Assembly (NCBI RefSeq): GCF_024138715.1
Contig: NZ_CP092074.1
Span: forward strand, 3,348,001-3,412,000
Source: Emticicia sp. 21SJ11W-3
Lineage (GTDB): Bacteria; Bacteroidota; Bacteroidia; Cytophagales; Spirosomataceae
DNA length: 64,000 nt
Direction of reading: 5' to 3'
Made by a program: the position numbers and the translations under genes. Position 1 is the stretch's first letter, and the number at the start of each line of letters is the position of its first letter. Under the pieces are notes generated by a model. It was not told where the DNA came from. It ran no database searches and saw only the letters and a program-made list of their open reading frames with translations. Shown piece by piece: positions 5,737-39,545 of this stretch.

Positions 5737-6070
5737 ATGAGTGAATTAGTGATTGAGCGGCCGGCGTTCCGGTGATTTAGTGAATTTGTGATTGAGAGGA
5801 TTTATTTACGAAAACCCCTTTTTTTTTATAAATGCGCTTGTAATCCAATAACCCACAAGGAAAATTCGCTAATTCACGATTATTCATTCACCGCAACGCC
5901 GCCCGCTCATTCGCTCAATCACCATTCACCGCAACGGCGGCCGCTAATTCACTAAATCACCGCAACGGCGCACGCTCATTCAGCGGAACGCCGCCCGCTC
6001 ATTCACTAAATCACTAATTCACTAAATCACTAATTCACTAAATCACTCAATCGCTCATTCACTCAATCGC
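5737..6070. repeat. 8-bp degenerate tandem array A (two facing blocks)
   Basis: 5868-6070 consists of units of the form C[AG]CT[AC]A[AT]T (for example CACTAAAT, CACTAATT, CGCTCATT), broken by GC-rich spacers such as ACCGCAACGCCGCCCGCTC. A block of the same units in the opposite orientation (GTGAATTA, GTGATTGA) occupies 5737-5806. The forward block runs into the stop codon of the membrane protein gene at 6063. No gene lies in 5692-6062. Confidence 0.85.
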
Positions 6071-6698
6071 TCTTCCTTCTCCACATCAATACCCCTGCCA
6101 GCACCAGCCAGCTTATCAGTCCGAAAACAAATATGCTGAAACCCCAAACACTGGTAAAGTTGAATTTCAGCAATAAACCGGCAAGTCCTGCGGCCAGAAT
6201 CAATAATCCATAATACCCAATCCATTTAGGCAAGGGGCTGGCTGTCAGAATAACCACCGACCATACCCCTACCGCAAAAGTGGTACCCCCAATAAACAGA
6301 TAAGCCATAGCGGCATTGATATAAAAGCCATAATGCACTATCATGTCCAGGGTTTCCCGGCTGGCTTTGGTTCCGTAGTAGTGTTCTACAAAATTGGGCA
6401 TAACAAAACCGTTAAATGCGGCTGCAATGATGCCCCCCATAAGCCCAATGCTGAAAACACAAAACCCCAGCATAGACAATCGGCCCGGCGTTTGCAGGTG
6501 CACCGATAGCCCCCATGCGCCAAAACCTATAAAAGGCATACAGGCAATAGCAAGGGCATGTGTAAACACAATAACTTTTTTTACATGTATGATATACTCC
6601 ATGCTGCCACCGGTGGGGTGGTGAATCATGGTAGCGGCGGCCAGAAAGGCCCCCATAAATAACATGAAAGCAGATGTTTGTCTGAATTGGTTGTTCAT
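6063..6698 (-). CDS. Polytopic membrane protein of unknown function
   Basis: About 211 residues from MNNQFRQTSAFML. Roughly six hydrophobic segments cover most of the length (FMLFMGAFLAAATMI, FTHALAIACMPFIGFGAWGL, LGFCVFSIGLMGGIIAAAF and others), so it is an inner membrane protein. A longer frame starts eight codons upstream but adds no membrane-like sequence. No family was named with confidence. The Crp/Fnr regulator gene lies just upstream on the same strand, and a perfect FNR-type palindrome sits about 55 bases before the start. This suggests control by that regulator. The last codons and stop codon are already part of repeat array A. Confidence 0.75.
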   Translation of the reverse strand: MNNQFRQTSAFMLFMGAFLAAATMIHHPTGGSMEYIIHVKKVIVFTHALAIACMPFIGFGAWGLSVHLQTPGRLSMLGFCVFSIGLMGGIIAAAFNGFVMPNFVEHYYGTKASRETLDMIVHYGFYINAAMAYLFIGGTTFAVGVWSVVILTASPLPKWIGYYGLLILAAGLAGLLLKFNFTSVWGFSIFVFGLISWLVLAGVLMWRRKSD

Positions 6699-6752
6699 AA
6701 TGATTTTTTTGAAGATGCGCACAAAATTGCAGCGATGTCAGCAAAACATCAC

Positions 6753-6766
6753 TTGATTCAAATCAA
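6753..6766. promoter_or_regulatory. FNR/CRP-type operator
   Basis: TTGATTCAAATCAA matches TTGAT-N4-ATCAA exactly and extends to a perfect 7-2-7 inverted repeat (6752-6767). It lies between the Crp/Fnr gene and the membrane protein gene, about 55 bases upstream of the latter's start. Confidence 0.65.
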
Positions 6767-6779
6767 GAAAAACAATGGG

Positions 6780-7370
6780 CTAATAAATACTTCTCACCCT
6801 GCTGAGTGTTTCGGGTGTCATTTTCAGGTAAGAGGCTATCATTTTGAGCGGAAACTGCTGCAACAATTGAGGCCTTGTGCTGAGCAGATGATTATATTTT
6901 TGCAGCGGTGTAAGGGTGTTATCAAAATAATGATTGCGGGCCAGGGCCTGCTCAAGCACCTTACCGAGTTGGAAGAAAACCGGCGACATACCGATTAATT
7001 CATGCGCTGCGTGAATAGACATCTCAAGCACCTCGCAGTCGGTGTGAGCTTTTATACAAGTGGCTGATGGTTTCTGCCCTACAAAGCTGGTGTAGTTCAT
7101 CACCCAGTCGTTTGCCATATACAGGTCAATGATGTTTTCGTCAATATCATTCAAAGTAAACTGATAAGCCGCCCCCGACACCACCAATGAAATACTTCGG
7201 CAAATGATACCCTCCGCCAAAAGCCACTGGTTTTTCTTATACTGACGGGCAACCATTTTTGAGGCAATAAATGCGGCCTCACTTTCAGTAAATCTGCCAA
7301 TTTTGTTTAAAACCTCAAAAAGCATCAGTTTTGTTATTGGTTTTGAAAGGTTCACCCCTGATATGGTCAA
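6780..7370 (-). CDS. Crp/Fnr-family transcriptional regulator
   Basis: 196 residues. A cyclic-nucleotide-binding-type beta-roll spans roughly residues 15-125 (KKNQWLLAEGIICRSISLVV, then CEVLEMSI), and a C-terminal helix-turn-helix occupies about 150-195 (LLQQFPLKMIASYLKMTPET). No N-terminal cluster of four cysteines is present, so it is not a classical [4Fe-4S] FNR; the input signal is unknown. This short, CNMP-domain type is abundant in Bacteroidota. It is followed on the same strand by a membrane protein gene with an FNR-like box in the intergenic gap. Confidence 0.85.
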   Translation of the reverse strand: MTISGVNLSKPITKLMLFEVLNKIGRFTESEAAFIASKMVARQYKKNQWLLAEGIICRSISLVVSGAAYQFTLNDIDENIIDLYMANDWVMNYTSFVGQKPSATCIKAHTDCEVLEMSIHAAHELIGMSPVFFQLGKVLEQALARNHYFDNTLTPLQKYNHLLSTRPQLLQQFPLKMIASYLKMTPETLSRVRSIY

Positions 7371-7508
7371 ATCAGAAAACTTCTTTTATGGCGTAGCCTA
7401 TATTTCAGTACGAAACGAATAATTGCGCCTGCAAATAAACCTGAATTTTTATAAAGCCGTAATCTACCAAGCCAAAAACATTAAATCTAATTTACCAAAA
7501 CAACGGCA
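7371..7508. other. Short intergenic stretch upstream of the Crp/Fnr gene
   Basis: AT-rich DNA with no gene, which probably holds the promoter of the Crp/Fnr gene. No clear -7 box or operator was recognised. Confidence 0.4.
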
Positions 7509-7740
7509 CACTCATTGACCGCAACGCCAGCCGCTAATTCACCCATTCACTAAATCACCATTCACTAAATCGTTCATTCACCGGAACGCCAGCCACTCAA
7601 TCACTAATTCGCTCAATCACTCATTCACCATTCACTCATTCACTAATTCACCATTCACTAATTCAGCGGAACGCCGCCCGCTCATTCACTAATTCAGCGG
7701 AACGCCGCCCGCTCATTCACTCATTCACTAATCGTTCTCA
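7509..7740. repeat. 8-bp degenerate tandem array B
   Basis: Units C[AG]CT[AC]A[AT]T with interspersed GC-rich spacers (GCGGAACGCCGCCCGCTC appears twice, at about 7664 and 7694). It begins at the TGA stop codon of the cation diffusion facilitator gene (7738-7740) and extends 230 bases beyond it. Confidence 0.85.
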
Positions 7741-8601
7741 TTCATGCGGTTCTACGTGTATCAGAATCTGGTCAAGCTCCGGCATTTCGGCTTGCAGATA
7801 ATCTTTCAGTCGGTGTGCCACGGCGTGTCCTTCTCGCACGGTCATGTGGGCATCTACAATAACGTGCAGGTCTACATGATACTTCATACCCGCCTTGCGA
7901 ACATAACATTTTTCGGTTTCAATAACCCCGTCTACCTCCATCGATTTCAATCTGATAGCCGCAATTACATCATCATACAGGTTTTCGTCCATTATTTCAC
8001 CCAGCGCAGGTCTTACAATCAGGTAGCAGTTATACAAAATGAATCCAGATGCAAAAAGTGCCGCCCAATCATCTGCCGACTCATAGCCCTTACCCATAAT
8101 CAGTGCAACAGTAATACCAATAAAAGCCGCAATAGAAGTAATGGCGTCGCTTCGGTGGTGCCAGGCATCAGCCCTTAACGACGAGCTGTTGGTCTCGCGG
8201 CTTTTTTTCATCACAATCTGGTAAGATAACTCTTTCCATAAAATAATTACCCCAAGCACTATCAGTGTCCAGGCTTTAGGCAAATGATGAGGCGTTCTGA
8301 TATTGTTGATACTCTCATGGGCTATCAACGTGGCCGACATAATCAGAAAACCCACCACCAGAAACGTAACCAGCGGTTCTATGCGCCCATGCCCGTACGG
8401 GTGATTATCGTCGGCAGGTCTGCTGGCATATTTTATACCCATCAGCACCAGAATAGACGCAAAAATATCGGTTGTCGACTCAATAGCATCTGCAATTAGG
8501 GCATAAGAATTGCCGAAAAATCCGGCCAGCCATTTAATAATTGCCAGGGCTATATTGCCAAAAATACTGAAATACGTGGCCCTGATGGCTTTTTCTTTCA
8601 T
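7738..8601 (-). CDS. Cation diffusion facilitator family transporter
   Basis: 287 residues. The CDF fold is clear: six membrane segments, with the metal-site residues ALIADAIESTTD in segment 2 and ADAWHHRSDAITS in segment 5, the HPYGHGRIEPL loop between segments 2 and 3, and a cytoplasmic C-terminal domain ending in ILIHVEP. Such proteins export Zn2+, Co2+, Fe2+, Cd2+ or Mn2+ in exchange for protons. The HHxxD rather than HxxxD arrangement leaves the metal specificity open. Monocistronic; its stop codon abuts repeat array B. Confidence 0.92.
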   Translation of the reverse strand: MKEKAIRATYFSIFGNIALAIIKWLAGFFGNSYALIADAIESTTDIFASILVLMGIKYASRPADDNHPYGHGRIEPLVTFLVVGFLIMSATLIAHESINNIRTPHHLPKAWTLIVLGVIILWKELSYQIVMKKSRETNSSSLRADAWHHRSDAITSIAAFIGITVALIMGKGYESADDWAALFASGFILYNCYLIVRPALGEIMDENLYDDVIAAIRLKSMEVDGVIETEKCYVRKAGMKYHVDLHVIVDAHMTVREGHAVAHRLKDYLQAEMPELDQILIHVEPHE

Positions 8602-9138
8602 GATATACTGCCTTCAAAAAAAATTAATAATAAAGCCCGAAACACACGCTGCAAGCAACTTTTTGCAAATGTAGAGCAAAACCCCGAATGTGGCGGTTAT
8701 TTTTTACCCATTTGCTGATATTAATACATAAAAGGCAACAAAAACCGTTATAAATACAAATGCAGTGTCGCGGGGCAGGTGCAAGGTGCATCGCCAACAC
8801 TATTTTACTCATAAACCGAAATTATTTAACAGATTTTTGTGCTTTCATTAAAACATTGTTAAAAAAAGCACATAAATGCTTGCTTTAATAAAATTTGATT
8901 CTAATTTGTAGCAGAATACTAAATCAGCAACACAAAGTCAATCTTAGTATAGTCAAACCGGCTGCCTGTTTTGCCTATTGTTATAATACCACAACAGACC
9001 TTCAAAAAAGAGATAGTGGCTAAATCACTAAAATTCAGTTTTATCTGAAATTACCCTTGGTTATTGGTTTAGAGTACCTCAGGCCGAGTTTTAAAAATTT
9101 CCCGTAAGTACCATTTTCATTACTTAATTAAAAAAAGG
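8602..9138. other. 537-base intergenic region, no gene seen
   Basis: AT-rich, without a convincing ORF on either strand. It separates the divergently oriented transporter and receiver genes and should hold both promoters. No perfect TAnnTTTG box was located. Confidence 0.5.
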
Positions 9139-9558
9139 ATGCACGTTTCATTAAATGTTATTCTGGCCGAAGACGATAAGGATTATCAGGATATTTTCAA
9201 TAACGCACTGGAAGAAGTGAATATACCCACCACACTCACCGTGGTAAGTGACGGCTACGAATTAATGAAAACGTTGAGGTCGCCCGATGCCCCCAACTAT
9301 AATATTGTGATTCTGGACATTAACATGCCCAAAAAGAACGGCATTGAGTGCCTGAAAGAAATCAGGAAAGACCAGACCCTCAGCAACACTTATTCGGTGA
9401 TACTCACCAGCAGCCAGGACCCCATCATTAAAGAAAGCGCCTACCAGGCAGGGGCCAATCTGTTTCTTACCAAGCCCATTAACTTTCATGAATACGTAGA
9501 AACCGTAAGAACAATTCTGACCTCCGACTGGCGGATGAACCTGCCGATATTTTTTTGA
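9139..9558 (+). CDS. Single-domain response regulator (CheY-like)
   Basis: 139 residues making up one receiver domain and nothing else. The acidic pair is in ILAEDDKDYQ, the phosphoacceptor Asp in VILDINMPKKNG, the conserved Ser/Thr in VILTSSQD, and the Lys in LFLTKPINF. It probably acts as a phosphorylation-dependent partner of a sensor kinase; no kinase lies next to it, although a hybrid-free multi-PAS kinase is encoded at 18356-21070. Stand-alone receivers of this type are common in Cytophagales. Confidence 0.9.
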   Translation: MHVSLNVILAEDDKDYQDIFNNALEEVNIPTTLTVVSDGYELMKTLRSPDAPNYNIVILDINMPKKNGIECLKEIRKDQTLSNTYSVILTSSQDPIIKESAYQAGANLFLTKPINFHEYVETVRTILTSDWRMNLPIFF

Positions 9559-9898
9559 AACCCATTACACCTCGTAAATCTGAGGCTGTATAGCTATGCC
9601 CAAAAACCACCTGATGGTATTACATTTCGCCCAATTCTAATTGCCACAATGTTCACAAAAAAGACACTATGTAACACAATTCTAACCCCTCGTCTTCTAT
9701 TTGCTCAATAGTTTTCCATTTGACCATCCGAAATTGAAAATCGACAATTCTCTAAATCATCCCCATTCCTGACATTTCTCATATTCCTGCTAAACAATCA
9801 TCCCTATTTTTGGTGTTATATAGGCAATAGTGCGTTGTTTTCTTCTCTTCAAGACAAGCAGATGCGTTGCGCTTGCCTTCTTAAACAGATTTACTCCC
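9559..9898. other. Intergenic region upstream of copA
   Basis: No gene was recognised. It must carry the copper ATPase promoter. No CsoR- or CueR-like palindrome was identified by eye. Confidence 0.4.
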
Positions 9899-13085: not shown

Positions 13086-13278
13086 TTCACTAATCCGCCA
13101 TTCACTAATCCGCCATTCACTAATTCGCCATTCACTAATCCGCTATTCACTAATCCGCTATTCACTAATTCGCCATTTACTAATCCGCTATTCACTAATT
13201 CGCCATTCACTAATTCGCCATTCACTAATTCGCCATTCACTAATCCGCCATTCACTAATTCGCCATTCACTAATCCGC
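13086..13278. repeat. 15-bp tandem array C (CACTAATYCGCYATT)
   Basis: About 12-13 copies of a 15-bp unit, related to the 8-bp arrays elsewhere by insertion of CGCC/CGCT. The TAG stop codon of the NUDIX-regulator gene (13270-13272) is itself inside a unit. Because 15 is a multiple of 3, both strands carry open repetitive frames (SLIRH on plus; VNGEL/VNGGL on minus), which are unlikely to be proteins. Confidence 0.9.
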
Positions 13279-14010
13279 GATTTTTTCAAGACTTTTAAAC
13301 CGATACAAATAAGGAGCCTTATTGGCTGCTCCGGTAAATTTCTTTTCCAGACGTTCCAGAATATCCAGGTCGAGAATCATTTTCTGGAAATTATTTCTCC
13401 GGAAAGGCCTGTCCAATATCGTTTCGTATAAATCCTGCACCTCTTTCATGGTAAACGTTTCAGGCAGCAGATTAAACCCTATCAGCTTGTAATTCAGCAT
13501 CAGGCGCAGGCTTTCAAGGGCTTTCATTATAATATCGGCGTGGTCAAATGCCAGCCGGGGCAGGTCTTTCATATCATACCACTGGCAGGTTTCGTCAAGC
13601 CCAGAGCAAAGAGGCACTACCCGATGAATATCTACCAGCGCATAGTATCCAATAGATATAAACCGGCGTTGCAGCCATTCCAAGTCTTCAGACAGCACTT
13701 CACCTTCTCCCAGACCCCCTTTTATGAGTTCTATTACCTGCCGCATCAGTTCCGGAGACGACCGCTCCAGGCTGCCAAACACACCAAACTGCTCCAGATA
13801 AATATCTTTTATTCCGGTTCGCTCTGCCAGAATCCGTAACGCTGCGCTGTCCAGACTTTCATTTTGCCTAACAAAACCACCCGGCACCATCCATATATCC
13901 ATATTTTTCAGCCGGGGCAACAATACCCTTAGCTGCCTGTCATAAAACCCAAAAATGACACAATCAACAGAAACCTGCTCTATAAATTCTCTCTTGTTAA
14001 ATAATTCCAT
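13270..14010 (-). CDS. NUDIX-domain transcriptional regulator (NrtR-like)
   Basis: 246 residues. A NUDIX-fold domain covers about residues 10-150 (VDCVIFGFYDRQLRVLLPRL, then MVPGGFVRQNESLDSAALRI and LAERTG). The NUDIX box is degenerate (AERTGI where hydrolases have REExxE), which argues for a ligand-sensing rather than a hydrolytic role. A winged-helix region follows (KEVQDLYETILDRPFRRNNF, LERLEKKFTG). Proteins of this architecture are NAD-metabolism (NrtR) or sugar-catabolism repressors in Bacteroidota. It is divergent from the ThuA/dehydrogenase gene, and a perfect 10-3-10 palindrome lies between the two. Confidence 0.85.
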   Translation of the reverse strand: MELFNKREFIEQVSVDCVIFGFYDRQLRVLLPRLKNMDIWMVPGGFVRQNESLDSAALRILAERTGIKDIYLEQFGVFGSLERSSPELMRQVIELIKGGLGEGEVLSEDLEWLQRRFISIGYYALVDIHRVVPLCSGLDETCQWYDMKDLPRLAFDHADIIMKALESLRLMLNYKLIGFNLLPETFTMKEVQDLYETILDRPFRRNNFQKMILDLDILERLEKKFTGAANKAPYLYRFKSLEKIAD

Positions 14011-14145: not shown

Positions 14146-14272
14146 TTCTTGTTTTCTATTATTTAAGTACACACATTTGTATCCGGAAGAGTGCATTTAC
14201 GCCGCAACAGGCGCCTTGCGCTTCTGCCTCAAAGCCATTACTTTACACCCGTAAACAATTTATTTTACTTTG

Positions 14273-17200
14273 ATGAAATCTAACAAAACAATCAGCTTAT
14301 TGTTAACCCTGCTGCTGTCGTATGGTCTGGTACAGGCACAGGTAAAAAAGCCGCAACTGCTGGTATTCAGCAAAACAGCCTCTTTCAGGCACGCGTCTAT
14401 TGATGCAGGCAAAAAAGCACTGGCCAAAATGGCAGCCGAAAAAGGCTTTGCCGTAACTTTTACTGAAGACGCCGAGGCTTTTAATGAAACCGATATTAAA
14501 AAGTATAACGCCGTTTTGTTTCTGAACACCACCGGCGACGTACTGAACGACAAGCAACAAGCCACTTTTGAACGGTACATTCAGGCCGGTGGCGGTTATG
14601 TAGGTGTACACGCAGCTACCGACACCGAGTACGAATGGCCCTGGTATGGTAAACTGGCAGGCGCTTACTTTCTGGACCACCCCATGGTGCCCAGCAACGT
14701 ACAAAAAGGTAAATATACCGTTGTACAAAAAAACCACTGGGCTACCCAGGGCATGCCCGACGAGTTTGAAAGAAGCGACGAGTTTTACAGCTTCAAAAAT
14801 ATTTCGCCCAAAATCAACGTATTGCTGACCATTGACGAAAAAACGTATCAGGGAGGCAAAAACCCCGACTACCACCCGATGAGCTGGTATCAGGAGTTTG
14901 ACGGTGGCCGGTCGTTCTACACTGCCATGGGGCATACAGACGAAACCTACGCCGAGCCTCTGTTTCTTAATCACCTGTATGCAGGTATCAATTACGCTAT
15001 GGGAGGGCCAAACCCCAAGCCTTTAAATTACGCCAATGCACGCCCTGAAGAAAACCGCTTTACCAAAGTAGTGCTTGAAGAAAAATTGAACGAACCAATG
15101 GAGCTGAGCGTATTGAACGACGGCCGTGTGCTGTTCATTGAGCGCAAGGGAGACGTGAAACTGTATAACACTAAAACCAAACAACTGAAAACCATTGCTT
15201 CTATACCTGTAAGCATCAAGTACAAAAGCAAAGAAGGCAAGGAATCAATGGGTGAAGACGGGCTGATGGGCCTTAACAAAGACCCCAACTTTGCGCAAAA
15301 CCACTGGATTTACCTGTACTACTCAATACCGGAGGAATCGAAGAACATTCTGACCCGCTATGAGCTGAAAGGTGATGAGCTGGTGCTTTCGTCTAAAAAA
15401 GTATTGCTTGAAATACCCACCCAACGCGAAGAATGCTGCCACACCGGGGGTTCTATTGCCTGGGACAAAGCCGGAAACCTGTATCTTTCAACCGGCGACA
15501 ACACCAACCCGCATGGCTCGAACGGCTACAGCCCGAGCGACGAAAGACCGGGCAGGGAATCATGGGATGCGCAGAAATCATCGGCCAACACCAACGACCT
15601 GAGAGGTAAAATCATCAGAATAAAACCTACGCCTGAGGGTGGCTACACCATTCCGGAAGGCAACCTTTTCCCGAAAGGCACAGCCGGTACGCGCCCTGAA
15701 ATATATACCATGGGCCACCGTAACCCTTTCAGAATTTCGGTTGATAACAAAACCGGATTTGTTTACTGGGGCGAAGTAGGCCCCGATGCCGCTAAACCTG
15801 CCGACGACCGCGGCCCCGCAGGGCACGACGAAGTTGGCCAGGCACGCAAACCGGGTAACTTTGGCTGGCCACACTTTGTGGGCGACAACAAAGCTTACAA
15901 TAAGTATGACTTTGAAAACAAAAAATCATTAGAGAAATGGGACGTAAACGCCCCTACCAATACTTCACCCAGCAACACGGGTCTGAAAGTACTGCCTCCG
16001 GCGCAAAAGGCTTTCATCTGGTATCCTTATGGGGCTTCGCCAGAGTTTCCGCTGGTGGGTAGCGGTGGTAGAAACGCCATGGCCGGGCCGGTGTTTTATT
16101 CAGACAATTTCAAAACCGCTCAACGCGCGTTTCCTAAATATTATGATGGCAAATTGTTTATTTATGAATGGATGCGCGGCTGGATAATGGCCGTAACGAT
16201 GGACAAAGACGGCAATTATGTATCGATGGAGCGTTTTATGCCCAGCTATAAATTCAACAACCCGATGGACATGGAGTTTGCCGAAAACGGCGACTTATAC
16301 ATGCTTGAATACGGCTCGGGCTGGTTTACCGGTAATGATGACGCCCGCCTGATTCGCATTGAATACAACGGTGGCAACCGCAAACCGCAAATTGCCGTAG
16401 CTGCTAATCAGCTGGGTGGCGCGGTGCCTTTCAACCTGAAATTAAGCTCTAAAGGCTCAACCGATGCCGACGGCGACGCCCTGAAATACAGCTGGCAAAT
16501 TACTTCAAAAAATGGTTTCAATAAGGTTATCAGCACGCCAGATGCCGCATTGACGCTCACCAAGCCGGGCATTTATAAAGCCACCCTTACTGTTAATGAT
16601 GGCAAAGGCGGCACAAACGCGCAGTCGTTAGAAATCATAGCCGGTAACGAGCCTCCGGTATTGAGCTTCGATATGCAAAAAGGTAACAGGTCTTTCTATG
16701 TTGCCAATAAATCTTTCGACTACGACATCAAGGTAAAAGATAAAGAGGATGGCACGCTCGGCAAAGGCATTGATGCCGAAAACGTGGCCGTAAGCATTGA
16801 CTACCTGCCTGAAGGATTTGATAAAGTTGCCATTGCACAAGGCCACCGTTCGGCTGATGCCAGCGCGGCATTTGTAGCTGGTAAAAGACTGATAGAAGCC
16901 AGCGACTGTAAAGCCTGCCACAGTGTAGAGAAAAAATCTATCGGGCCAGCTTATCGCGACGTAGCTGCCAAGTATAAAGGCGACAAAGATGCAGCCGACC
17001 GCCTGGCCAAGAAGATTATCAGCGGTGGTGGTGGCGTGTGGGGCGAAACCCCAATGAGTGGCCACCCGCAGCTTTCAGCAGCCGATGCCGGAGAAATGGT
17101 GAAGTACATCCTGAACCTGGCCAACGAAAAACCAAAAGCAAAATCGTTGCCGCTGCAAGGCACTTACACAGCCAAACTACCTGCTAACGACAAAGGCAAA

Positions 17201-17704
17201 GGCGTGTATATTGTAAGAGCAGCCTACGAAGACCAGGGTGCCAACGGCTTGCCATCGTTAAAATCAGAGCAGACTTTTACGCTTAGAAATGCCACTTTGG
17301 GTGCGCACGATTTTGATAAATATGAAGACGTAAACAAGATGTCGTTCAGTGGGCGTAACCTGGCTATGCCTGCCAAGTCTGGCGCATACATGGTGCTTAA
17401 CAAAGTAGACCTGAGCGGCATTACCGAATTGCAGATTCAGGCAATGGCCCCTAAACCACAGGTTAACGCGTTGGGTGGCAAAGTTGAGTTACGTCTCGAC
17501 AGCCCCAAAGGCAAGCTGGTGGGTGAGTCGGCCTTCCTTGAGCCATCTGATCAAATGAGCATGACCCCTAACATTCTGAAAGTACCGATAAGCAAGGTAG
17601 AAGGCCTGCACGACATCTACGTGGTGTACGTAAACCCGAAATCTGAAAACGGCACCCTGATGATTGTAACCGGACTGGAATTTAAACTCAGCGAGCAAAA
17701 TTAA
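14273..17704 (+). CDS. ThuA / PQQ-type sugar dehydrogenase / PKD / cytochrome c fusion, secreted
   Basis: 1143 residues with a signal peptide (SKTISLLLTLLLSYGLVQAQ type; cleavage near AQA-Q). Visible modules in order: ThuA-like glutamine-amidotransferase fold (~25-245, LLVFSKTASFRHASID and GGGYVGVHAATDTEYEWPWY); soluble glucose/sorbosone dehydrogenase beta-propeller (~255-700, MGLNKDPNFAQNHWIYLYYS and YTMGHRNPFRISVD); PKD domain (~700-790, STDADGDALKYSWQI); class I cytochrome c with CKACH at 879-883; and a C-terminal CBM6-like beta-sandwich. The architecture suggests periplasmic oxidation of a sugar or cyclitol, with electrons passed to the fused haem domain. The substrate is unknown. The NUDIX regulator is divergent; a small secreted protein follows. 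Confidence 0.88.
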   Translation: MKSNKTISLLLTLLLSYGLVQAQVKKPQLLVFSKTASFRHASIDAGKKALAKMAAEKGFAVTFTEDAEAFNETDIKKYNAVLFLNTTGDVLNDKQQATFERYIQAGGGYVGVHAATDTEYEWPWYGKLAGAYFLDHPMVPSNVQKGKYTVVQKNHWATQGMPDEFERSDEFYSFKNISPKINVLLTIDEKTYQGGKNPDYHPMSWYQEFDGGRSFYTAMGHTDETYAEPLFLNHLYAGINYAMGGPNPKPLNYANARPEENRFTKVVLEEKLNEPMELSVLNDGRVLFIERKGDVKLYNTKTKQLKTIASIPVSIKYKSKEGKESMGEDGLMGLNKDPNFAQNHWIYLYYSIPEESKNILTRYELKGDELVLSSKKVLLEIPTQREECCHTGGSIAWDKAGNLYLSTGDNTNPHGSNGYSPSDERPGRESWDAQKSSANTNDLRGKIIRIKPTPEGGYTIPEGNLFPKGTAGTRPEIYTMGHRNPFRISVDNKTGFVYWGEVGPDAAKPADDRGPAGHDEVGQARKPGNFGWPHFVGDNKAYNKYDFENKKSLEKWDVNAPTNTSPSNTGLKVLPPAQKAFIWYPYGASPEFPLVGSGGRNAMAGPVFYSDNFKTAQRAFPKYYDGKLFIYEWMRGWIMAVTMDKDGNYVSMERFMPSYKFNNPMDMEFAENGDLYMLEYGSGWFTGNDDARLIRIEYNGGNRKPQIAVAANQLGGAVPFNLKLSSKGSTDADGDALKYSWQITSKNGFNKVISTPDAALTLTKPGIYKATLTVNDGKGGTNAQSLEIIAGNEPPVLSFDMQKGNRSFYVANKSFDYDIKVKDKEDGTLGKGIDAENVAVSIDYLPEGFDKVAIAQGHRSADASAAFVAGKRLIEASDCKACHSVEKKSIGPAYRDVAAKYKGDKDAADRLAKKIISGGGGVWGETPMSGHPQLSAADAGEMVKYILNLANEKPKAKSLPLQGTYTAKLPANDKGKGVYIVRAAYEDQGANGLPSLKSEQTFTLRNATLGAHDFDKYEDVNKMSFSGRNLAMPAKSGAYMVLNKVDLSGITELQIQAMAPKPQVNALGGKVELRLDSPKGKLVGESAFLEPSDQMSMTPNILKVPISKVEGLHDIYVVYVNPKSENGTLMIVTGLEFKLSEQN

Positions 17705-17912
17705 TTAGTGAATGAGTGTATTAGTGAATTAGAGAATGAGCGGGCGGCGTTCCGCTAATTCACTGCAACGGCGCCCCATCAATCAAAAATTCATTCACTA
17801 ATTCACTAATTCACTAAATCGCTCATTCACTCACTCAATCACTAATTCACTAATTCACTAATTCACTAATTCACTAAATCGCTCATTCACTCACTAATTC
17901 ACTAATTCCCTA
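17705..17912. repeat. 8-bp degenerate tandem array D (two facing blocks)
   Basis: It starts immediately after the TAA stop at 17702-17704 with TTAGTGAATGAGTG. After about 50 bases and a GC-rich spacer the orientation inverts to CACTAATT units, which continue almost to the next start codon at 17921. It fills the whole gap between the two genes. Confidence 0.9.
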
Positions 17913-17920
17913 TTTACCCT

Positions 17921-18286
17921 ATGAAATCTATTCTAACATTTGTTTTATTAATAGCCGCGGTATCGCTGGCTAATGCGCAGGCACCTGCAACAACCAATTT
18001 CTTTACAGGCAACTGGGAAGTACTTGTAAAAGGCACCCCACAGGGCGACGTGAAACTGCCAATGAGTTTTGAGGTAGTAGACGGCAAAATTATTGGCAAA
18101 GTTACCAACCCTGAAACCAAAGAAGTAGCCAACATGACCTCAGTTGAAATAAAAGGTGAAGAGTTGTTTGCAGCCTTTTCGGCAGGTGGATATGACCTGA
18201 CAATGGTTATCACCAAAAAAGACGACGATCACTTTGTAGGCAAACTGATGGATATGATAGAGGTTGAAGGTACAAGATTGAAGTAA
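17921..18286 (+). CDS. Small secreted protein of unknown function
   Basis: 121 residues with a clear signal peptide (FVLLIAAVSLANAQ-A). The mature part is a short beta-rich domain: FFTGNWEVLVKGTPQGDVKL, MSFEVVDGKIIGKVTNPETK, and a C-terminal VGKLMDMIEVEGTRLK. This looks like a small lipocalin- or calycin-type barrel. Similar short proteins follow ThuA/dehydrogenase genes in related genomes, from memory of such clusters, so a link with the upstream fusion enzyme is plausible but unproven. It ends at a large perfect palindrome shared with the convergent kinase gene. Confidence 0.75.
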   Translation: MKSILTFVLLIAAVSLANAQAPATTNFFTGNWEVLVKGTPQGDVKLPMSFEVVDGKIIGKVTNPETKEVANMTSVEIKGEELFAAFSAGGYDLTMVITKKDDDHFVGKLMDMIEVEGTRLK

Positions 18287-25704: not shown

Positions 25705-25870
25705 AACCGATTCTTGTAGAGATACTATTTTTATTTGCGTAGAGACAATGGCACTGCCTTGTCTCTTTTTTTATTACCTCAATGCACAAAAAAAGAGCAA
25801 CACACCGCTGCTCTTTCTTTTATTGCCACAATGTACCCAAATGACACAATGTTTCACAAATGATAGTTTC

Positions 25871-25945
25871 CCAATCACTCATTCACTCATTCATCATTCG
25901 CTCATTCACCATTCACTCATTCACCATTCGCTCATTCACTCATTA
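25871..25945. repeat. 8-bp degenerate tandem array E
   Basis: Units such as CACTCATT, CGCTCATT and CACCATT. It begins at the TAA stop codon (25943-25945) of the OmpA-like gene. On that gene's strand the stop is followed by TGAGTGAATGAGCGAATGG. The remainder of 25705-25942 shows no gene. Confidence 0.8.
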
Positions 25946-26548
25946 TTTCCCCGCCGCCACTGACGACTTGGCCTCCAGGAATTTCTTCTCATTGGCTCTG
26001 ATTTTTACCACAACCCGGCGGTTTTTACGGCGGCCTTCCGGTGTGGCATTGCTTTCAACGGGTCTGGTAGCGCCATAACCTGCAATGGCCATTCTTTCGG
26101 CCAGCACCCCATTACCTTTCAGATACAAAGCCACGGCTTTGGCCCGGTTTTCAGACAATATCTTGTTTTTCATCTGGTTGCCACTGCTATCGGCATGGCC
26201 TTCTATAAATATTTCAGTGTAGGGGTATTCGTTCAGCACACCAGATATGCTTCCTAAAACTCCTTTGGCATTACTGGTAAGATTTTCTGAGCTTGACTCA
26301 AAGTAAAAATCAGGTTGAAACGCAATGTTAATGCCGTCGGCGGTACGCACAATGTCTGCACTGCCTTTGGTGGCGTTTATCAGGGCGGTTGCCAGTTTGT
26401 CAAGCATAATTCCGATTCTTACAGCAGCCTCGGCAGCTACAGGGTCTTTTTTCCGACCGGATTCCTGAGAAGATTTTTTTGATGATTTGCACGCTGCAAC
26501 AAGCATTATACCCAATGCCGCCACCGCCAGAAGCCGATGTAGTTTCAT
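25943..26548 (-). CDS. OmpA-family lipoprotein
   Basis: 201 residues. A lipoprotein signal (LAVAALGIMLVAAC, Cys about residue 20) is followed by a Lys/Ser-rich linker. The C-terminal OmpA domain begins near residue 80 and includes YPYTEIFIEGHADSSGNQMK, LSENRAKAVALYL, and GYGATRPVESNATPEGRRKN with the two peptidoglycan-contacting residues (Asp in GHADSS, Arg in EGRRKNRR). It probably tethers the outer membrane to peptidoglycan. Monocistronic; the stop codon abuts repeat array E. Confidence 0.9.
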   Translation of the reverse strand: MKLHRLLAVAALGIMLVAACKSSKKSSQESGRKKDPVAAEAAVRIGIMLDKLATALINATKGSADIVRTADGINIAFQPDFYFESSSENLTSNAKGVLGSISGVLNEYPYTEIFIEGHADSSGNQMKNKILSENRAKAVALYLKGNGVLAERMAIAGYGATRPVESNATPEGRRKNRRVVVKIRANEKKFLEAKSSVAAGK

Positions 26549-34512: not shown

Positions 34513-34558
34513 AACACAGGCTTGTATAAAACGGCCATAAAAAAGGCCTGCGGTGCGT

Positions 34559-35545
34559 TTACAGCTCGCCGTAGGTCTTTTTCTTTTTCAGAAAATAAGC
34601 CAGTACAATGCTTTTCGGATAGACATCTTTCAATACTTTGGGCGATTTCCGTTCCAGATTCCGCATCATGCCATAAAAAGCAAAATGCGCTTTAATAATA
34701 GCCCATACATCTTTAAAAGACCCACCCAGAAATAACTTTATACCAGACACCCCGTCGAGTATCAATCTTAAAAAAATAGTAGAAAATAACTGACCCGGCG
34801 GCAGATTCTTGTACATCATGGCCAGCCCGTTGCGGTAGTTAAGAAAAGTTTTGCGCGGGTTTGATTTATGCAGCGTACCGCCCCCCACATGATAAACCGT
34901 TGAGGCTGCTGAATAATAAACCTTATAGCCTGCGTTCTTCATGCGCCAGCAAAGGTCTATCTCTTCCATGTGGGCAAAGAATGAGGTATCAAAGCCACCC
35001 AGCTCATGAAAAACCGACGCCCGCACAAACATACAGGCACCCGTAGCCCAGAACACCTCTCGGGTATCGTCATACTGCCCGTTGTCGGCTTCGCAGGTAT
35101 CAAAAATTCTTCCTCTGCAAAACGGATACCCCAGCCAGTCAATGTACCCTCCGGCTGCCCCGGCATATTCAAATTGTTGCCTATTGTTATAATCTTTTAG
35201 TTTGGGCTGGCAGGCGGCTATAGCGGGGTTGGCATCCATCAGTTCAACCAGCGGAGCCACCCAGTTGGGCGTAACCTCTACGTCTGAGTTCAGCAACACA
35301 TAATATTCGGCCTCTATTTGCGCCAACGCCTCATTGTATCCGCCAGCAAATCCGGTATTGACAGGCAGGCTGATTAACCTGATTTGCGGATAATTATGCC
35401 GCATAAACACAAGAGAATTGTCGGTAGAGGCGTTGTCGGCCACTACAATTTCATATCCCTCAGCGTGTTTAATCACAGAAGGCAGAAATTCCCTGAGAAA
35501 CCCCTGCCCATTATAATTAAGTATAACTATTGCTACTTTTGACAT
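34559..35545 (-). CDS. Glycosyltransferase family 2
   Basis: 328 residues. The GT-A fold begins VAIVILNYNGQGFLREFLPS, then VVADNASTDNSL, NTGFAGGYNEAL and the DxD-type metal site YVLLNSDVEV. The acceptor-side motif is FFAHMEEIDLCWRMKNAGYK. This subclass often transfers rhamnose or another deoxysugar onto polysaccharide precursors. A C-terminal amphipathic segment (FSTIFLRLILDGVSGIKLFL) may associate with the membrane. No polysaccharide cluster surrounds it. Confidence 0.9.
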   Translation of the reverse strand: MSKVAIVILNYNGQGFLREFLPSVIKHAEGYEIVVADNASTDNSLVFMRHNYPQIRLISLPVNTGFAGGYNEALAQIEAEYYVLLNSDVEVTPNWVAPLVELMDANPAIAACQPKLKDYNNRQQFEYAGAAGGYIDWLGYPFCRGRIFDTCEADNGQYDDTREVFWATGACMFVRASVFHELGGFDTSFFAHMEEIDLCWRMKNAGYKVYYSAASTVYHVGGGTLHKSNPRKTFLNYRNGLAMMYKNLPPGQLFSTIFLRLILDGVSGIKLFLGGSFKDVWAIIKAHFAFYGMMRNLERKSPKVLKDVYPKSIVLAYFLKKKKTYGEL

Positions 35546-35551
35546 GCAGAA

Positions 35552-35806
35552 TCAATTGGAACTTTGATTGTTTTGAACTTTGCCGCGGCGTACAGTTTTA
35601 ACTGATTAAATGATTTTTATGATTAAATTTATTGAGCCATTTAATATGAAAATTGTGTAACTTAGTGTAATCATAGAGTACATTGTGGCAATAAAATATT
35701 TGTACTAAGTAATTGCCACAATGTGTACAAAGTACTCAAAGTTGCACAATTTCTCACTAATCAGTGAAATCACAAAAGTTAGCCGCTGCTGACCGCTAAA
35801 TCAAAG
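35552..35806. repeat. Intergenic region with partial AACTTTGATTTAGC-type repeats
   Basis: GGAACTTTGATTGTTTTGAACTTTGCCGCGGCG near 35560 and GCCGCTGCTGACCGCTAAATCAAAGTTT at about 35781-35808 are relatives of the palindrome at 18295-18351. The second one ends at the stop codon of the YbaB gene. GCCACAATGT-type direct repeats also occur between them. No gene was seen. Confidence 0.5.
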
Positions 35807-35807
35807 T

Positions 35808-36152
35808 TTAAGACTTGAACATACTTCCCAAATCCATACCGGGTATGTTCGGTATCAGGCCTTCGGTACTTTTCTTCAATTCTTCTTTGGCTTTTTCTTC
35901 TACCTTCTCCAGCGCCTTGTTGGTGGCCGCCACAATCAGATCCTGCAATATTTCTTTATCATTGCCTTTCAGCAGTTCATCATCTATCTCAATTTTCAGA
36001 ATCTGTTTTTTACCGTTTACGGTTGCCTGCACCATGCCGGCCCCTGCTTCACCGGTTTCGGTTATTTTGCCCAGGTTTTCCTGTGCTTCCTGCATACGGG
36101 CCTGCATTTCTTTCATTTTACCAGCCAGCCCGAAAATATCTCCCATGTTCAT
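35808..36152 (-). CDS. YbaB/EbfC family nucleoid-associated protein
   Basis: 114 residues from MNMGDIFGLAGKMKEMQARM; the frame extends 26 codons upstream, but that part is not family-like. The YbaB core follows: GEAGAGMVQATVNGKKQILK and KEILQDLIVAATNKALEKVE. The family forms small DNA-binding dimers that coat the chromosome. In many bacteria it lies beside dnaX and recR; here it is downstream of a CrtA-like gene instead. Confidence 0.92.
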   Translation of the reverse strand: MNMGDIFGLAGKMKEMQARMQEAQENLGKITETGEAGAGMVQATVNGKKQILKIEIDDELLKGNDKEILQDLIVAATNKALEKVEEKAKEELKKSTEGLIPNIPGMDLGSMFKS

Positions 36153-36287
36153 GATTATATCAGAATTTAATGTTTCTTTTTCCAACACAAAACTACAAAA
36201 AAAGGCCGTCGGTTCAGACAGCCCACCCAAATATGATTTGCATTACCCTAAACGCCGACTTCAACTTTCATTAAAAACAAAGCGCCA

Positions 36288-37025
36288 TCATAAGAGGTAA
36301 CGCTGCCCGTTTAAAGAGCCAAAGGTTTTAAGCGGTATAAAACGGGCAAACAATTCTTCCGAATACCAGCCTTCATCGCGGGTTTTTCTTACAACATCCG
36401 CATGTGTTCGCTGTTTGTAGGCAAACTGCTTCACGTCGTTCAGGCTCTCCCAGATAGAAAAAGTAGCCTGCCTTACAAACGGCATCTCGCCTACCCCTAC
36501 CGAAGTAACAAAACCCGCGGCCTCTTTAATGCCTGCCGCAACCGGCGGTACATTGGCCCAGAAACCACGCAACTTGGACGGACGGATGCTGGCACGGGTA
36601 AGCACCGCTATTTTGCCCTGATAATCTTTACTGACCGCGCTTTTGCTGAACGGCTCCTTGCCGTCCCATTTACCGTGCGCCTCGCAAGGCTGGCACAATA
36701 TGGTCCATTGCTCATGGCAAAGGGTTTTCCACCATCGCTGAAGAAACGAATGTTGTCTGAAGTTTTCAAAATCAGCCTCGGTTTCCCAAACGGCCAGCAG
36801 CCCCCATTGTTTCAGGTCGGGTTCTATATCAAAAGTACCGTTTTTACCACAACCCAGCAATTTCCAGAAGGTCAACCCTTTAGTAAACAAAAGCGGTAAC
36901 CTGAACACCGCCATAGAAATAAAGGCCAGCGGAACCGCCCAGCCCGGATAACGCACAATAGTAAGCGACATGAACATAGACAGACGGTTGATTTTATTAC
37001 GGCTTTTAAACACAGCCGAAGGCAT
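36288..37025 (-). CDS. CrtA-like (spheroidene monooxygenase family) protein
   Basis: 245 residues. It matches the CrtA-type family, with the conserved GFWANVPPVAAGIKEAAGF region and a C-terminal EMPFVRQATFSIWES followed by FAYKQRTHADVVRKT and WYSEELFARF. CrtA enzymes are haem-containing oxygenases that oxidise carotenoids; non-photosynthetic bacteria carry homologues of uncertain substrate. No other carotenoid gene is in the window. It lies 135 bases upstream of ybaB on the same strand. Confidence 0.8.
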   Translation of the reverse strand: MPSAVFKSRNKINRLSMFMSLTIVRYPGWAVPLAFISMAVFRLPLLFTKGLTFWKLLGCGKNGTFDIEPDLKQWGLLAVWETEADFENFRQHSFLQRWWKTLCHEQWTILCQPCEAHGKWDGKEPFSKSAVSKDYQGKIAVLTRASIRPSKLRGFWANVPPVAAGIKEAAGFVTSVGVGEMPFVRQATFSIWESLNDVKQFAYKQRTHADVVRKTRDEGWYSEELFARFIPLKTFGSLNGQRYLL

Positions 37026-37229
37026 AATTATGCAAAGTAATTTATTTTGATGATTAATAAGAAGCCTGTCTCAGAAACACACTTTTATTCTACAATGAAA
37101 ACAATTGAGCGCATTCATTGTTTCAGATTCCATTCAAATAAACAATCTGGATATACCCACTTTGGGTTAATAATTGATTAAAACCCTAACCTTTCACGCC
37201 CAAAGCATCGCTTTACCACAAATACCCCT

Positions 37230-37237
37230 TACCTTTG
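37230..37237 (+). promoter_or_regulatory. Bacteroidota -7 box for the RNA methyltransferase gene
   Basis: TACCTTTG matches TAnnTTTG. It lies only 15 bases before ATG 37253, which excludes the in-frame start codon at 37235 that overlaps the box itself. Confidence 0.55.
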
Positions 37238-37252
37238 CAAAAAAATGTGGAT

Positions 37253-37789
37253 ATGAGAAAACTGCAGATGGAAGAACTGAACCGGCTGACGGTTGAGGAG
37301 TTTCAGGAAGTGGAAAAGAAAAATTTTTGTCTGATTCTGGACGACGTCAGAAGCCTGAACAACGTTGGGTCGGCGTTCAGAACGGCTGATGCCTTTCTGG
37401 TTGAGAAAATATATCTGTGCGGCATTACCGGCACCCCGCCCCACCGCGAAATTGAAAAAACAGCTTTGGGGTCAACAGAATCGGTAGCCTGGGAACACCG
37501 CAGCAGCATTACAGACCTGATTGCCGAGCTGAAAGGCAATGGCTATACCGTGCTGGCCATTGAGCAGGTTGAAAACAGCATGAAACTACCGGATTTCAGA
37601 CCCGAGGCCAGTCAAAAATATGCTTTTATATTTGGCAACGAGGTTTTCGGGGTTAATGATACGGCTATTGCCGCTGCCGATGGCTGCCTTGAAATACCCC
37701 AGTTTGGCACCAAGCACTCGCTCAATATCTCGGTTACTGTGGGTATTATCTGCTGGGACTACGTTTCAAAACTGATAGCCATTCATTGA
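37253..37789 (+). CDS. TrmH/SpoU-family RNA 2'-O-methyltransferase
   Basis: 178 residues. The SPOUT fold has the characteristic motif 1 (LILDDVRSLNNVGSAFRTAD), motif 2 (FIFGNEVFGVND) and motif 3 (LEIPQFGTKHSLNISVTVGI), with the conserved catalytic Arg and Ser/Asn residues. It methylates the 2'-OH of a ribose in tRNA or rRNA using S-adenosylmethionine. There is no N-terminal RNA-binding extension, which fits small tRNA-targeting members, but the exact nucleotide is not predictable. Confidence 0.9.
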   Translation: MRKLQMEELNRLTVEEFQEVEKKNFCLILDDVRSLNNVGSAFRTADAFLVEKIYLCGITGTPPHREIEKTALGSTESVAWEHRSSITDLIAELKGNGYTVLAIEQVENSMKLPDFRPEASQKYAFIFGNEVFGVNDTAIAAADGCLEIPQFGTKHSLNISVTVGIICWDYVSKLIAIH

Positions 37790-37860
37790 ACAACGCGCCA
37801 TGCAATTTTTTTGGCGTTTGTTTCGTCTATATTCATAATTACCCCACTAAAAACCAGAAA

Positions 37861-39111
37861 ATGCGTCTATCGGCATTCATTTCTTTTTTTCTACTGGCAT
37901 TTTGCAACTTGTTTGCGCAGCAATCAATGCCTGCCGTGCCGGTTGTATGCCATTATATTGAAGAAAACAGTTTTACCGAGATTCTGCCTGAAAGATTGTT
38001 TTCTGCCAATGCCAGACCTGCCACTACTGCCACCATTGAAGTTACTTATGTAGATTTCCCTGAAACTGCCAAAGCGGCCTACGAAAAAGCCATGAGCATC
38101 TGGGCCGGGTATCTGTACTCAAGCCAGCCCATACGCATTAAAGCCACATGGACAGCCCTCAATACCGGTGTGCTGGCTGTAACGGGTTCAACCCGCATCT
38201 ATAAAAATTTTACCGGCGCACCTTATACCAACCTATGGTATCCGGTGGCAATGGCAGAGGCTATATCAGGGCGAAATCTGAACGACGACGAATTTGAAAT
38301 AGAAATGAAGCTGAATAATGGTGTAAACTGGTCGTTCAATACCGACGGAAGGGCATCAGCAGGGCGATTTGACTTTACCACCGTGGTGCTGCACGAAATT
38401 GCACATGGCCTTGGGTTTTCGTCTTCCATGAAAATTACCAACACCACTCAGGGGCAATACGGGCAGTCGGGCAGTAATTACATTTACGATACTTTTCTGC
38501 AGGATTCCGGCCGTATCAAACTGACAGATGCCACGGTTTATGGCAATCCGTCGACCGACTTAAAAACCGCGCTCACCAGCAATGCCTTGTATTTCGGACT
38601 AAAAAATACTGCTTTCGCTAACAGCCTGCCCAGAATTTATGCGCCTACTACATTTAGTGAGGGGTCGAGCATTTCTCATTTTGACGAAAACACCTATCCT
38701 GCCGGTAGCGATAATTCGCTGATGTCACCCAGTGTAAGAACCGCCGAGGTGAACCATAAACCCGGCGAACTGCTGCTACGGGCCCTACAGGAAATGGGCT
38801 GGTATATTATAGACCCGGACGGCTATATTATTAATTCTGTTGAGCCAGGTCAACAACTAAATGTATTGATTTTTCCGAATCCGGTGGCAGATGTAATTAC
38901 CATAGCGTTTCCGCTCAGCAATTCAGCCCGCGACGTAAGCGCCGAACTGACAGATTCAAAAGGAGTATTGATTAATAAGATAGAAGGGAAATCGATTATT
39001 TCAGAGACCTACACACTAGACCTGACCAACCTGCCTGATGGCTTGTATCTATTAAAAATTAAAGACGCCAACCGGCTAATTACCAAAAAACTCATCAAAC
39101 GCGGCACATAA
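37861..39111 (+). CDS. Secreted zinc metalloprotease with type IX sorting domain
   Basis: 416 residues from ATG 37861, with a signal peptide (RLSAFISFFLLAFCNLFAQ-Q). A zinc-binding motif HEIAHGLGF lies near residue 177, followed by SSMKITNTTQGQYGQSG. This suggests a metzincin-like peptidase, although the usual third ligand (HExxHxxGxxH) is not in the standard place. The last ~75 residues are a type A C-terminal sorting domain of the type IX secretion system (VLIFPNPVADVITI, then LDLTNLPDGLYLLKIKD and a terminal KKLIKR), so it is exported to the cell surface or outside. Confidence 0.87.
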   Translation: MRLSAFISFFLLAFCNLFAQQSMPAVPVVCHYIEENSFTEILPERLFSANARPATTATIEVTYVDFPETAKAAYEKAMSIWAGYLYSSQPIRIKATWTALNTGVLAVTGSTRIYKNFTGAPYTNLWYPVAMAEAISGRNLNDDEFEIEMKLNNGVNWSFNTDGRASAGRFDFTTVVLHEIAHGLGFSSSMKITNTTQGQYGQSGSNYIYDTFLQDSGRIKLTDATVYGNPSTDLKTALTSNALYFGLKNTAFANSLPRIYAPTTFSEGSSISHFDENTYPAGSDNSLMSPSVRTAEVNHKPGELLLRALQEMGWYIIDPDGYIINSVEPGQQLNVLIFPNPVADVITIAFPLSNSARDVSAELTDSKGVLINKIEGKSIISETYTLDLTNLPDGLYLLKIKDANRLITKKLIKRGT

Positions 39112-39164
39112 CCCCCAGAACACCCCGATATTTATTAAGCCATCGAAACAATAATGCCCCAAAA

Positions 39165-39545
39165 CAGCAGCCGCTCAATCACTAATTCGCTCAATCCCCG
39201 CAACAGCAGCCGCTAAATCACTAATTCACTAATTCGCTCATTCACTCATCCCCCACAACAACAGCCACTTAATCACTAATTCGCCATTCCCCACAGCGGC
39301 GGCCACTCAATCACTAATTCGCCATTCCCCACAACGGAGGCCACTCAATCACTCATTCGCTCATTCACTAATTCACTAATTCACTAATTCGCTCAATCCC
39401 CGCAACAGCAGCCGCTCATTCACTAATTCGCTCAATCACTCATTCACTATTTCACTCATTCACTAATTCACTCATTCCCCGCAACGGCGGCCGCTCATTC
39501 ACTAATTCACTCAATCACTAATTCGCTCATTCACTAATTCCCTCA
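39165..39545. repeat. 8-bp degenerate tandem array F (longest)
   Basis: About 380 bases of C[AG]CT[AC]A[AT]T units interrupted by CCCCGCAACAGCAGCCGCT- and CCCCACAACGGAGGCCACT-type spacers. It ends exactly at the TGA stop codon of the acyltransferase gene (39543-39545). It fills almost all of the gap between two convergent genes. Confidence 0.9.

Follow-up and report, generated by a model that had tools for sequence, protein, structure and literature searches.

In REP/RAYT systems, a Y1 nuclease gene lies between inverted copies of a repeat that is also scattered between genes without the nuclease gene, and repeat and protein are coupled; the GTAG/CGTC-tagged REPs reportedly represent one described REP group. 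Cyanobacterial STRR heptamers resemble the arrays reported here in being short tandem words between genes, and we know of no inverted arms and no linked gene among the STRRs.

The closest described relatives found are two other systems, and the initial annotation, which named no described repeat family of this kind, was nearly right. The first are the rRNA intervening sequences (IVSs), which PMC4990558 describes as an ORF of the PF05635 family bordered by terminal inverted repeats that pair into a stem (a 28-bp inverted repeat in Coxiella), and which are termed selfish there, with mobility suggested without proof. The same paper attributes no known function or activity to the S23/IVP family and considers that the Coxiella S23 protein is probably not made in vivo, which weighs against the reading proposed below. 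The second are the TAACTGA heptamer arrays of Beggiatoaceae, cyanobacteria and Bacteroidetes, according to PMC4679880 intergenic direct repeats near starts, with stops in all three frames, some of which extend over an upstream stop; the main genome of that study has one inverted repeat among its 170 sets, and the terms “four helix” and “intervening” are absent from the main text of that paper. While the TAACTGA arrays and STRRs are 7-bp direct repeats, the arrays reported here have an 8-bp (or 8+7) word and frequent inverted pairs. Compared to the IVSs of Coxiella and Leptospira, the likeness is a PF05635 ORF between inverted arms in the one full copy of the host genome, and the differences are that IVSs, which RNase III excises from the transcript, lie in 23S (or 16S) rRNA whereas the elements reported here lie in gaps between protein genes, hence “IVS-like”, and that the arms here are degenerate tandem 7-8-mers with dozens of gene-less arms in one genome. 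The arrays are best read as IVS-like elements in gaps between mostly co-directional genes, with a REP/RAYT-like organisation. Specifically, we propose, with a probability of about 0.65, that they belong, as copies without the gene (arms or hairpins), to a family of insertion elements in which a full copy consists of an arm, a PF05635/TIGR02436 four-helix-bundle gene and an inverted arm.

The window, which is the whole 64-kb stretch of Emticicia sp. 21SJ11W-3 DNA analyzed, contains all six intergenic 8-bp arrays at the places where they were initially reported; the 20-mer unit pattern has 35 matches in it and none in any of 100 dinucleotide shuffles. The unit consensus, A[AT]TC[AG]CT[AC], combines five near-fixed positions with three two-letter positions, and 27 of 29 interior units of the window arrays, which were not selected by the pattern, match it exactly. 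Array 1 has a left arm at 5735-5803 (minus strand), with octamer units and a GC-rich linker at 5756-5770, which, counted by exact units, is separated by 47 bp from the downstream ATG of an NhaA-like gene (4546-5691, minus), and a right arm at 5864-6072 (plus) with 16 units and GC-rich linkers, inside which the TGA stop of the gene at 6063-6722 (minus) is found. Array 4 is also two-armed; the first unit of its left arm (17703-17753, minus, with a GC-rich linker) starts 1 nt after the TAA of the gene at 14270-17704 (plus), and its right arm (17793-17912, plus, 13 units) is followed by the ATG of the gene at 17921-18286 (plus), 8 bp on by the tandem-repeat call and 16 bp on if only exact units are counted. 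The other four arrays are single-armed and on the plus strand. In array 2 (7509-7732, 16 units), 7 bp separate the final exact unit from the stop codon of a cation-efflux gene (7738-8601, minus), and array 3 (13086-13282), a 15-bp (8+7) variant with 17 units, enters the last codons of an NrtR-like gene (13270-14010, minus) and provides its TAG stop. Array 5 (25873-25944, 8 units) lies 1 nt from the stop of an OmpA-family gene (25943-26548, minus), ahead of a terminator-like hairpin, and array 6 (39177-39540), a single long arm of 27 units with GC-rich linkers, lies 6 bp from the stop of an acyltransferase gene (39543-40637, minus). None of the six arrays contains a PF05635 gene. Rfam 15 had no match in the window at the gathering score, and the repeat letters matched only an irrelevant human RNA in the literature.

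Arms often occur in inverted pairs that fold, and strong hairpins were predicted for all 17 two-armed arrays chosen (z -5.1 to -17). Arrays 1 and 4 invert partway and can fold (z -6.1 and -10.6), as initially proposed. These hairpins, together with near-invariant unit positions that suggest a bound sequence and with an intergenic location that is rarely between divergent genes (2/38 host loci, compared to 102/393 gaps measuring 100 bp or more; Fisher p 0.0025), could indicate that the arrays matter to mRNA ends, level or stability of neighboring genes. However, the genes flanking the window arrays belong to Pfam families unrelated to one another, the 20-mer pattern is absent from 2 of the 11 genus genomes, and no array is present within the 330 nt compared at the OmpA orthologues of the 10 remaining genus genomes (the gene end of one orthologue, L300 in G010, being judged by eye), which makes such a role improbable. 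Moreover, the array at the OmpA gene lies, by eye, between the stop and a separate hairpin with a T-run, which at this one gene contradicts the previously suggested function of the array hairpin as an intrinsic terminator. Blocking of readthrough, also suggested, is superfluous, since arms of the same kind occur upstream of start codons as well.

The placement of arms was further analyzed over 864 kb of host sequence. Of 40 host stretches, 25 were selected for arrays; the remaining 15 (300 kb) were fixed blind and contained one small array. Gene ends beyond the window were taken from simple ORF calls, in which stops are surer than starts. The ATTCACT 3' side faced the nearer gene edge in 43 of 50 host arms. 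Among the 49 arms used in the edge test (one in a gap of more than 2500 bp was left out), 42 were oriented outward (random mean 24.3) and 35 had their 3' side within 30 bp of the gene edge they faced (23 stops and 12 starts; random mean 9.3). The fixed orientation that had been described is thus real, but it applies to any gene edge and not to stops alone; 26 arms faced stops and 23 faced starts, even though a position within 30 bp was found for 23 of the 26 stop-facing arms and for 12 of the 23 start-facing arms. Similarly, at six genes of the window the stop codon is either contained in an arm or no more than 7 bp away from one, but the second arms of arrays 1 and 4 precede ATGs, so that not all arms are anchored at stops. 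The condition initially set for refutation, arms near starts just as often, thus largely applies as far as stop codons are concerned. As starts are flanked too and the distance between the first unit and the stop was spread over many values between -18 and +22, without a fixed phase (84 arms; range searched -20 to +24 nt), a mechanism that targets stop codons was rejected. What stands of the proposed 3'-flank family is a gene-flank family with fixed orientation, hairpin potential and many sites, which is not stop-specific. The same word and the same edge rule were found in other genera, in an analysis that used 145 of 180 arms; 10 arms located within ORFs and 25 that lacked two neighbors were left out.

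Arms that end at variable offsets from stops and starts are also what would be expected if 8-bp words grew by slippage in non-coding gaps until selection halted them at functional sequence, with the four-helix genes merely located in repeat-rich gaps; in addition, unit numbers vary between arrays and perfect 16-bp runs are present. We consider this local microsatellite expansion unlikely, because a single word, with two alternative letters at three positions, turns up at 39 loci of the host and again in other genera, and because slippage would not be expected to yield inverted pairing, outward orientation or repeats that frame one protein family. For the insertion-element family, copies may survive only where nothing breaks, that is, directly at stop codons, shortly ahead of ribosome-binding regions and immediately outside promoters. 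Palindromic insertion alone, though, leaves a single arm hugging a gene edge unexplained, which counts against our reading, as about 25 of the 39 host loci have one arm only.

The sole four-helix-bundle gene of the host genome (PF05635, 23S rRNA intervening-sequence protein; 44.9 bits compared to a cut-off of 33.8; PDB 2rld, E 5.2e-13) sits between 8-mer arms. Each of the 9 genus genomes that match the 20-mer pattern has a PF05635 gene with 8-mer arms, which are degenerate in one of them (L335 in G009), and neither of the two genomes without any pattern match has such a gene. In 17 other genomes, which were reached via octamer-bearing loci and are therefore not a random sample, the flanks of PF05635 homologues paired as inverted arms at all 30 loci tested (of 88 matches), mostly with short words other than the octamer. 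The at least 118 octamer loci, some of which are from non-Bacteroidota MAGs, were selected by a 3.5-unit pattern that favors consensus-obeying units, and the reversed-pattern control is not independent, as arrays of AATCACTA match it too. A locus passed the arm test if the pairing of its own left and right flanks scored better than 90% of mismatched pairs; 20 of 27 genus PF05635 loci passed and 7 failed (3 short loci of 30 were left out). Percentiles were used because the random-pairing maximum in the genus (27.4) exceeded the own mean (23.4), due to orthologous and neighboring loci in the set. Both sets of gene-bearing loci, like the folding two-armed arrays, thus resemble rRNA IVSs in their stem-forming terminal inverted repeats. 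By comparison, the test was passed by 5/46 other genes, 0/11 reverse transcriptase loci and 10/28 Y1-transposase loci, the latter with palindromes of their own. Gene-bearing loci lay between two ORFs of one direction in 54 of 57 cases, with the PF05635 gene in sense to both neighbors in 48. The four-helix genes of Tolypothrix and Brasilonema are, by eye, framed by STRR-style words, which may be STRRs.

Since the arrays are extragenic, hairpin-forming and linked to one gene, and Y1 transposases are found in all 11 genus genomes, the arrays might be REP elements mobilized by a Y1 (RAYT) transposase. This is very improbable, as, among the 28 of 57 Y1 matches whose loci were tested, none had more than one 8-mer unit within 250 bp, and several have other palindromes. 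The likeness to REP/RAYT systems lies in one protein gene framed by inverted repeat copies, gene-less intergenic copies and repeat-protein coupling, which is weak overall here (r 0.18), whereas a four-helix protein replaces the Y1 nuclease and tandem octamer arms replace a single 20-40-bp palindrome. Avd of diversity-generating retroelements (DGRs) resembles PF05635 according to PMC10053308. A reverse transcriptase partner as in DGRs is no general requirement, as RVT_1 is present in 6 of 11 genus genomes and has no match in the complete host genome, for which reason no engine for movement is seen; DGR-like adenine mutagenesis, considered as an idea only for the A/T, A/G and A/C positions, does not fit outcomes of two letters rather than four.

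In a tree of 58 PF05635 proteins (those below 95 aa, and so L082 and L243, were left out, and L329, L334 and L335 are not included), the 7 proteins with 8-mer arms clustered with 2 changes (shuffled mean 6.7; 0/500 shuffles), although L244, a long branch without 8-mer arms, falls within their clade. A PF05635 clade tied to one readable word provides a direct entry to a binding test, and thereby to the role of this widespread protein. Arm and protein similarity were correlated after removal of same-site pairs (r 0.18, 0/2000; n=47 or 57, as one of the two runs leaves out 10 of 57 loci with an arm score below 17), and coupling beyond the 8-mer word is weak (r 0.11-0.12 without 8-mer loci; 3 or 7 of 2000). 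Part of the coupling is plain inheritance, as several 8-mer-arm genes share an ancestral site (Emticicia and Dyadobacter L074) and L082, L088 and L170 occupy a second common site. The four-helix protein may recognize the arm word, as an RNA or DNA hairpin, and could help copies to spread or persist in trans in a REP/RAYT-like manner. More tentatively, and with rather low probability, the elements could represent a categorically new two-part selfish class in Bacteroidota and cyanobacteria, in which a non-enzymatic S23/Avd-like four-helix protein recognizes its own degenerate 7-8-bp word and propagates or protects arrays in transcribed gaps; this class would unite rRNA IVSs, STRRs, TAACTGA repeats and the arrays reported here, and, if general, separately described heptamer and octamer arrays would become one kind of element.

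One site was found with the PF05635 gene in one Mucilaginibacter locus and without it in another (L082/L088), with flanking proteins identical at 327/369 and 345/378 residues, and this gene-bearing and gene-less pair provides a model for the origin of the short repeats. The gap upstream of DedA is 465-503 bp where filled and 47-77 bp where empty. One host array pair adjoins tRNA sequences, in an apparent rRNA spacer.

The best interpretation of the octamer arrays in the window is as gene-less arms belonging to a family of elements resembling the intervening sequences (IVS) of 23S rRNA, in which two inverted arms, each a run of short (here 8-bp) units in one orientation, frame a gene for an S23/IVP four-helix-bundle protein (PF05635/TIGR02436). 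The architecture of these elements, a link of the octamer word to a protein clade, and both filled and empty sites were observed. All six arrays described in the initial annotation were recovered by tandem-repeat detection and are evident in the sequence itself; a 20-mer pattern (2.5 units) matched 35 times in the window, compared with 0 of 100 shuffles. The unit is A[AT]TC[AG]CT[AC]; a 7-bp form, ATTC[AG]CC, also occurs, as does a GC-rich linker. Of the 29 8-mers flanked by exact units in the window alone, 27 were themselves exact. Among 158 host 8-mers, each between two exact units and from loci partly selected by the pattern itself, positions 1, 3, 4, 6 and 7 were single-letter in 153 to 157, and the two-letter positions were divided as A66/T88 (position 2), A131/G23 (position 5) and A68/C90 (position 8), with 0 to 4 other letters each. 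The same five positions were single-letter in 295 to 317 of 319 such 8-mers, from loci selected in the same way, in other genera.

Placement was analyzed in 864 kb of the host genome (5.18 Mb, a single contig), comprising the window and 40 stretches of 20 kb, 25 of them picked for arrays and 15 not; this sample held 39 array loci, one of which was in the 15 stretches not picked for arrays. None of 50 arms of at least three units lay inside a called gene, and the 3’ side of ATTCACT, hereafter the pointing side, faced the nearer gene in 43. In gaps of up to 2.5 kb, the pointing side was within 30 bp of a gene in 35 of 49 arms (23 stops, 12 starts) and the other side in 3 of 49, where random placement gave means of 9.3 and 9.2, respectively, and none of 2000 placements reached 35. 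The arrays had been proposed to be anchored at stop codons in a fixed orientation; since arms lie close to both stops and starts, this rule holds for gene edges generally and not for stop codons alone. Arrays avoided gaps between divergent genes (2/38 array loci vs 102/393 gaps of at least 100 bp, p = 0.0025). Of 24 start-pointing arms, 11 ended no more than 17 bp from the ATG and the rest further away, some of them, by eye, outside a TAnnTTTG motif that we take to be a promoter-like box. Octamer arms also adjoin two tRNA-like sequences in an apparent rRNA spacer at G000:C1:111099-111290.

The 20-mer pattern was found in 9 of 11 genomes of the genus and 7 of 296 of the phylum, the host being counted in both. 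At least 118 array loci were found in named genomes, including Pontibacter, Dyadobacter, Larkinella, Mucilaginibacter, Rudanella and others, and some non-Bacteroidota MAGs. Among the loci listed from named genomes, the pointing side was nearer to its neighbor in 120 of 145 arms with two neighbors, the median gap on that side was 7 bp for stops and 17 bp for starts, compared with 97 bp and 113.5 bp on the other, and 10 of 180 arms lay inside ORFs. Compact hairpins (stop, arm, center of 20-100 bp, arm, start) were common in 29 two-armed stretches inspected, and all 17 chosen two-armed elements folded with z-scores of -5.1 to -17.

At a Mucilaginibacter locus, L082, a four-helix-bundle gene occupies the center, flanked by the two arms. 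The host carries a single such gene at E 0.001 (1084197-1084499; PF05635 and TIGR02436), also between 8-mer arms. Inspection of the flanks of all 41 TIGR02436 matches in 10 of the 11 genus genomes (the host, G000, and G001-G010) showed one gene framed by 8-mer arms in each of G000, G001, G002, G004, G006, G007, G008 and G010; in G009 the arms are degenerate. G003 had neither a TIGR02436 match nor the 20-mer pattern, and the six matches in G005 were framed by other words, with neither an 8-mer-arm gene nor the pattern. An 8-mer-arm gene, counting the degenerate form, was present in 9/9 genomes with the pattern vs 0/2 without it (Fisher 0.018, kinship ignored). Among titles and abstract openings listed from the open-licence PMC literature, none described a link between this protein family and tandem, inverted or intergenic repeats, either in searches for the two together or in one for octamer repeats in these genera; a search of that literature for the repeat strings themselves gave one, irrelevant, match.

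By eye, in the genus flanks and in the 19 of 30 other-genome loci inspected, most of the remaining four-helix genes likewise lie between inverted arms, built from different tandem words of 7-8 bp such as GAGTTCTGAGTTCTG, TTGTGCCTCTGTGCC, GACAAGAGACAAAAG and, in a cyanobacterium, GTCAATGGTCAATG. A flank score, which measures inverted pairing and not tandem make-up, placed a locus’s own left and right flanks above the 90th percentile of mismatched pairs at 20 of 27 genus loci and at all 30 loci tested (of 88 matches) in 17 of 19 searched genomes, themselves reached via octamer-bearing loci. Control loci passed in 5 of 46 cases for other genes (3 of the 5 with at least two octamer units nearby), 0 of 11 for reverse transcriptases and 10 of 28 for Y1 transposases, several of the last with palindromes of their own. 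None of the 28 Y1 loci had 8-mer arms, and the host genome had no RVT_1 match. Several genus Y1 genes (L340, L341, L343, L350, L351, L362 and others) are framed by their own REP-like palindromes. Across 57 loci the four-helix gene was sense to both neighbors in 48, antisense to both in 6 and mixed in 3. By eye, the arms of most word families appear to contain little G in the outward direction, so that on the sense strand the arm at the stop is rich in purines and the one at the start in pyrimidines.

Mapped onto a 58-protein tree, 8-mer arms, present for 7 of the proteins, required 2 changes (shuffled mean 6.7; 0/500 that low). These 7 formed a single group in 12% of bootstrap trees, and the long-branched L244, which lacks 8-mer arms, fell within their clade. 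Across all words, the coupling between arm and protein similarity was weak (r 0.18, same-site pairs excluded; 0/2000 permutations, whether run on the 47 loci that have arms or on all 57), came mostly from 12-15 pairs with protein similarity above 0.6, and fell to r 0.11-0.12 (3 or 7 of 2000 permutations) when 8-mer loci were excluded. Inheritance accounts for part of it, since one site is common to the copies in Emticicia and in Dyadobacter (L074), and another to L082, L088 and L170. Words also appear replaceable while site and gene remain, given that Belliella L251 and Pontibacter L254, by flanking sequence apparently at the same operon site downstream of a thiolase-like gene, have four-helix genes framed by completely different words.

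The four-helix protein may recognize the arm word, and it could spread or maintain copies in trans. The Coxiella S23 protein has been reported as probably not produced in vivo (PMC4990558), which calls for caution toward any protein-driven model. The IVS-like reading does not explain why single arms lie flush with a gene edge despite much remaining gap, the two-letter positions or the engine of movement.

Filled and empty sites were found upstream of a DedA gene: G000, G001, G003 and G006 have a gap of 47-77 bp there, and in G002, G005 and G009 a framed four-helix gene lies in a gap of 465-503 bp. The gap measures 109 bp in G010, 445 bp in G007 and 199 bp in G004, where by eye it contains another hairpin and, next to the ATG, a relic of the first word; no close DedA locus was found in G008. 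In Mucilaginibacter, the gene-bearing L082 and L088, the latter a gene-less 8-mer hairpin with a 17-bp center, occupy one and the same gap, between genes that we presume from their sequence to encode a phosphosugar mutase-like and a cysteine desulfurase-like protein (products 327/369 and 345/378 identical). In the window, the array starts 1 nt past the stop of an OmpA gene (187 aa; 185-190 aa in 9 of 10 orthologues) and is followed by a terminator-like hairpin, seen by eye likewise in G001 and G007, while the last codons and stop of an NrtR-like gene are supplied by its array.

Two neighboring host genes of similar size (881 and 893 aa; G000:C1:3294319-3301428) are each framed by arms, and the two centers resemble inverted copies of one another. 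Another dispersed repeat, GTACATTGTGGC / GCCACAATGTAC carrying ACACAATG tails, lies at 25827-25863 of the window and near host positions 799887, 1007640, 2822618, 3650128 and 3668184, by eye often in the center or behind an octamer arm.
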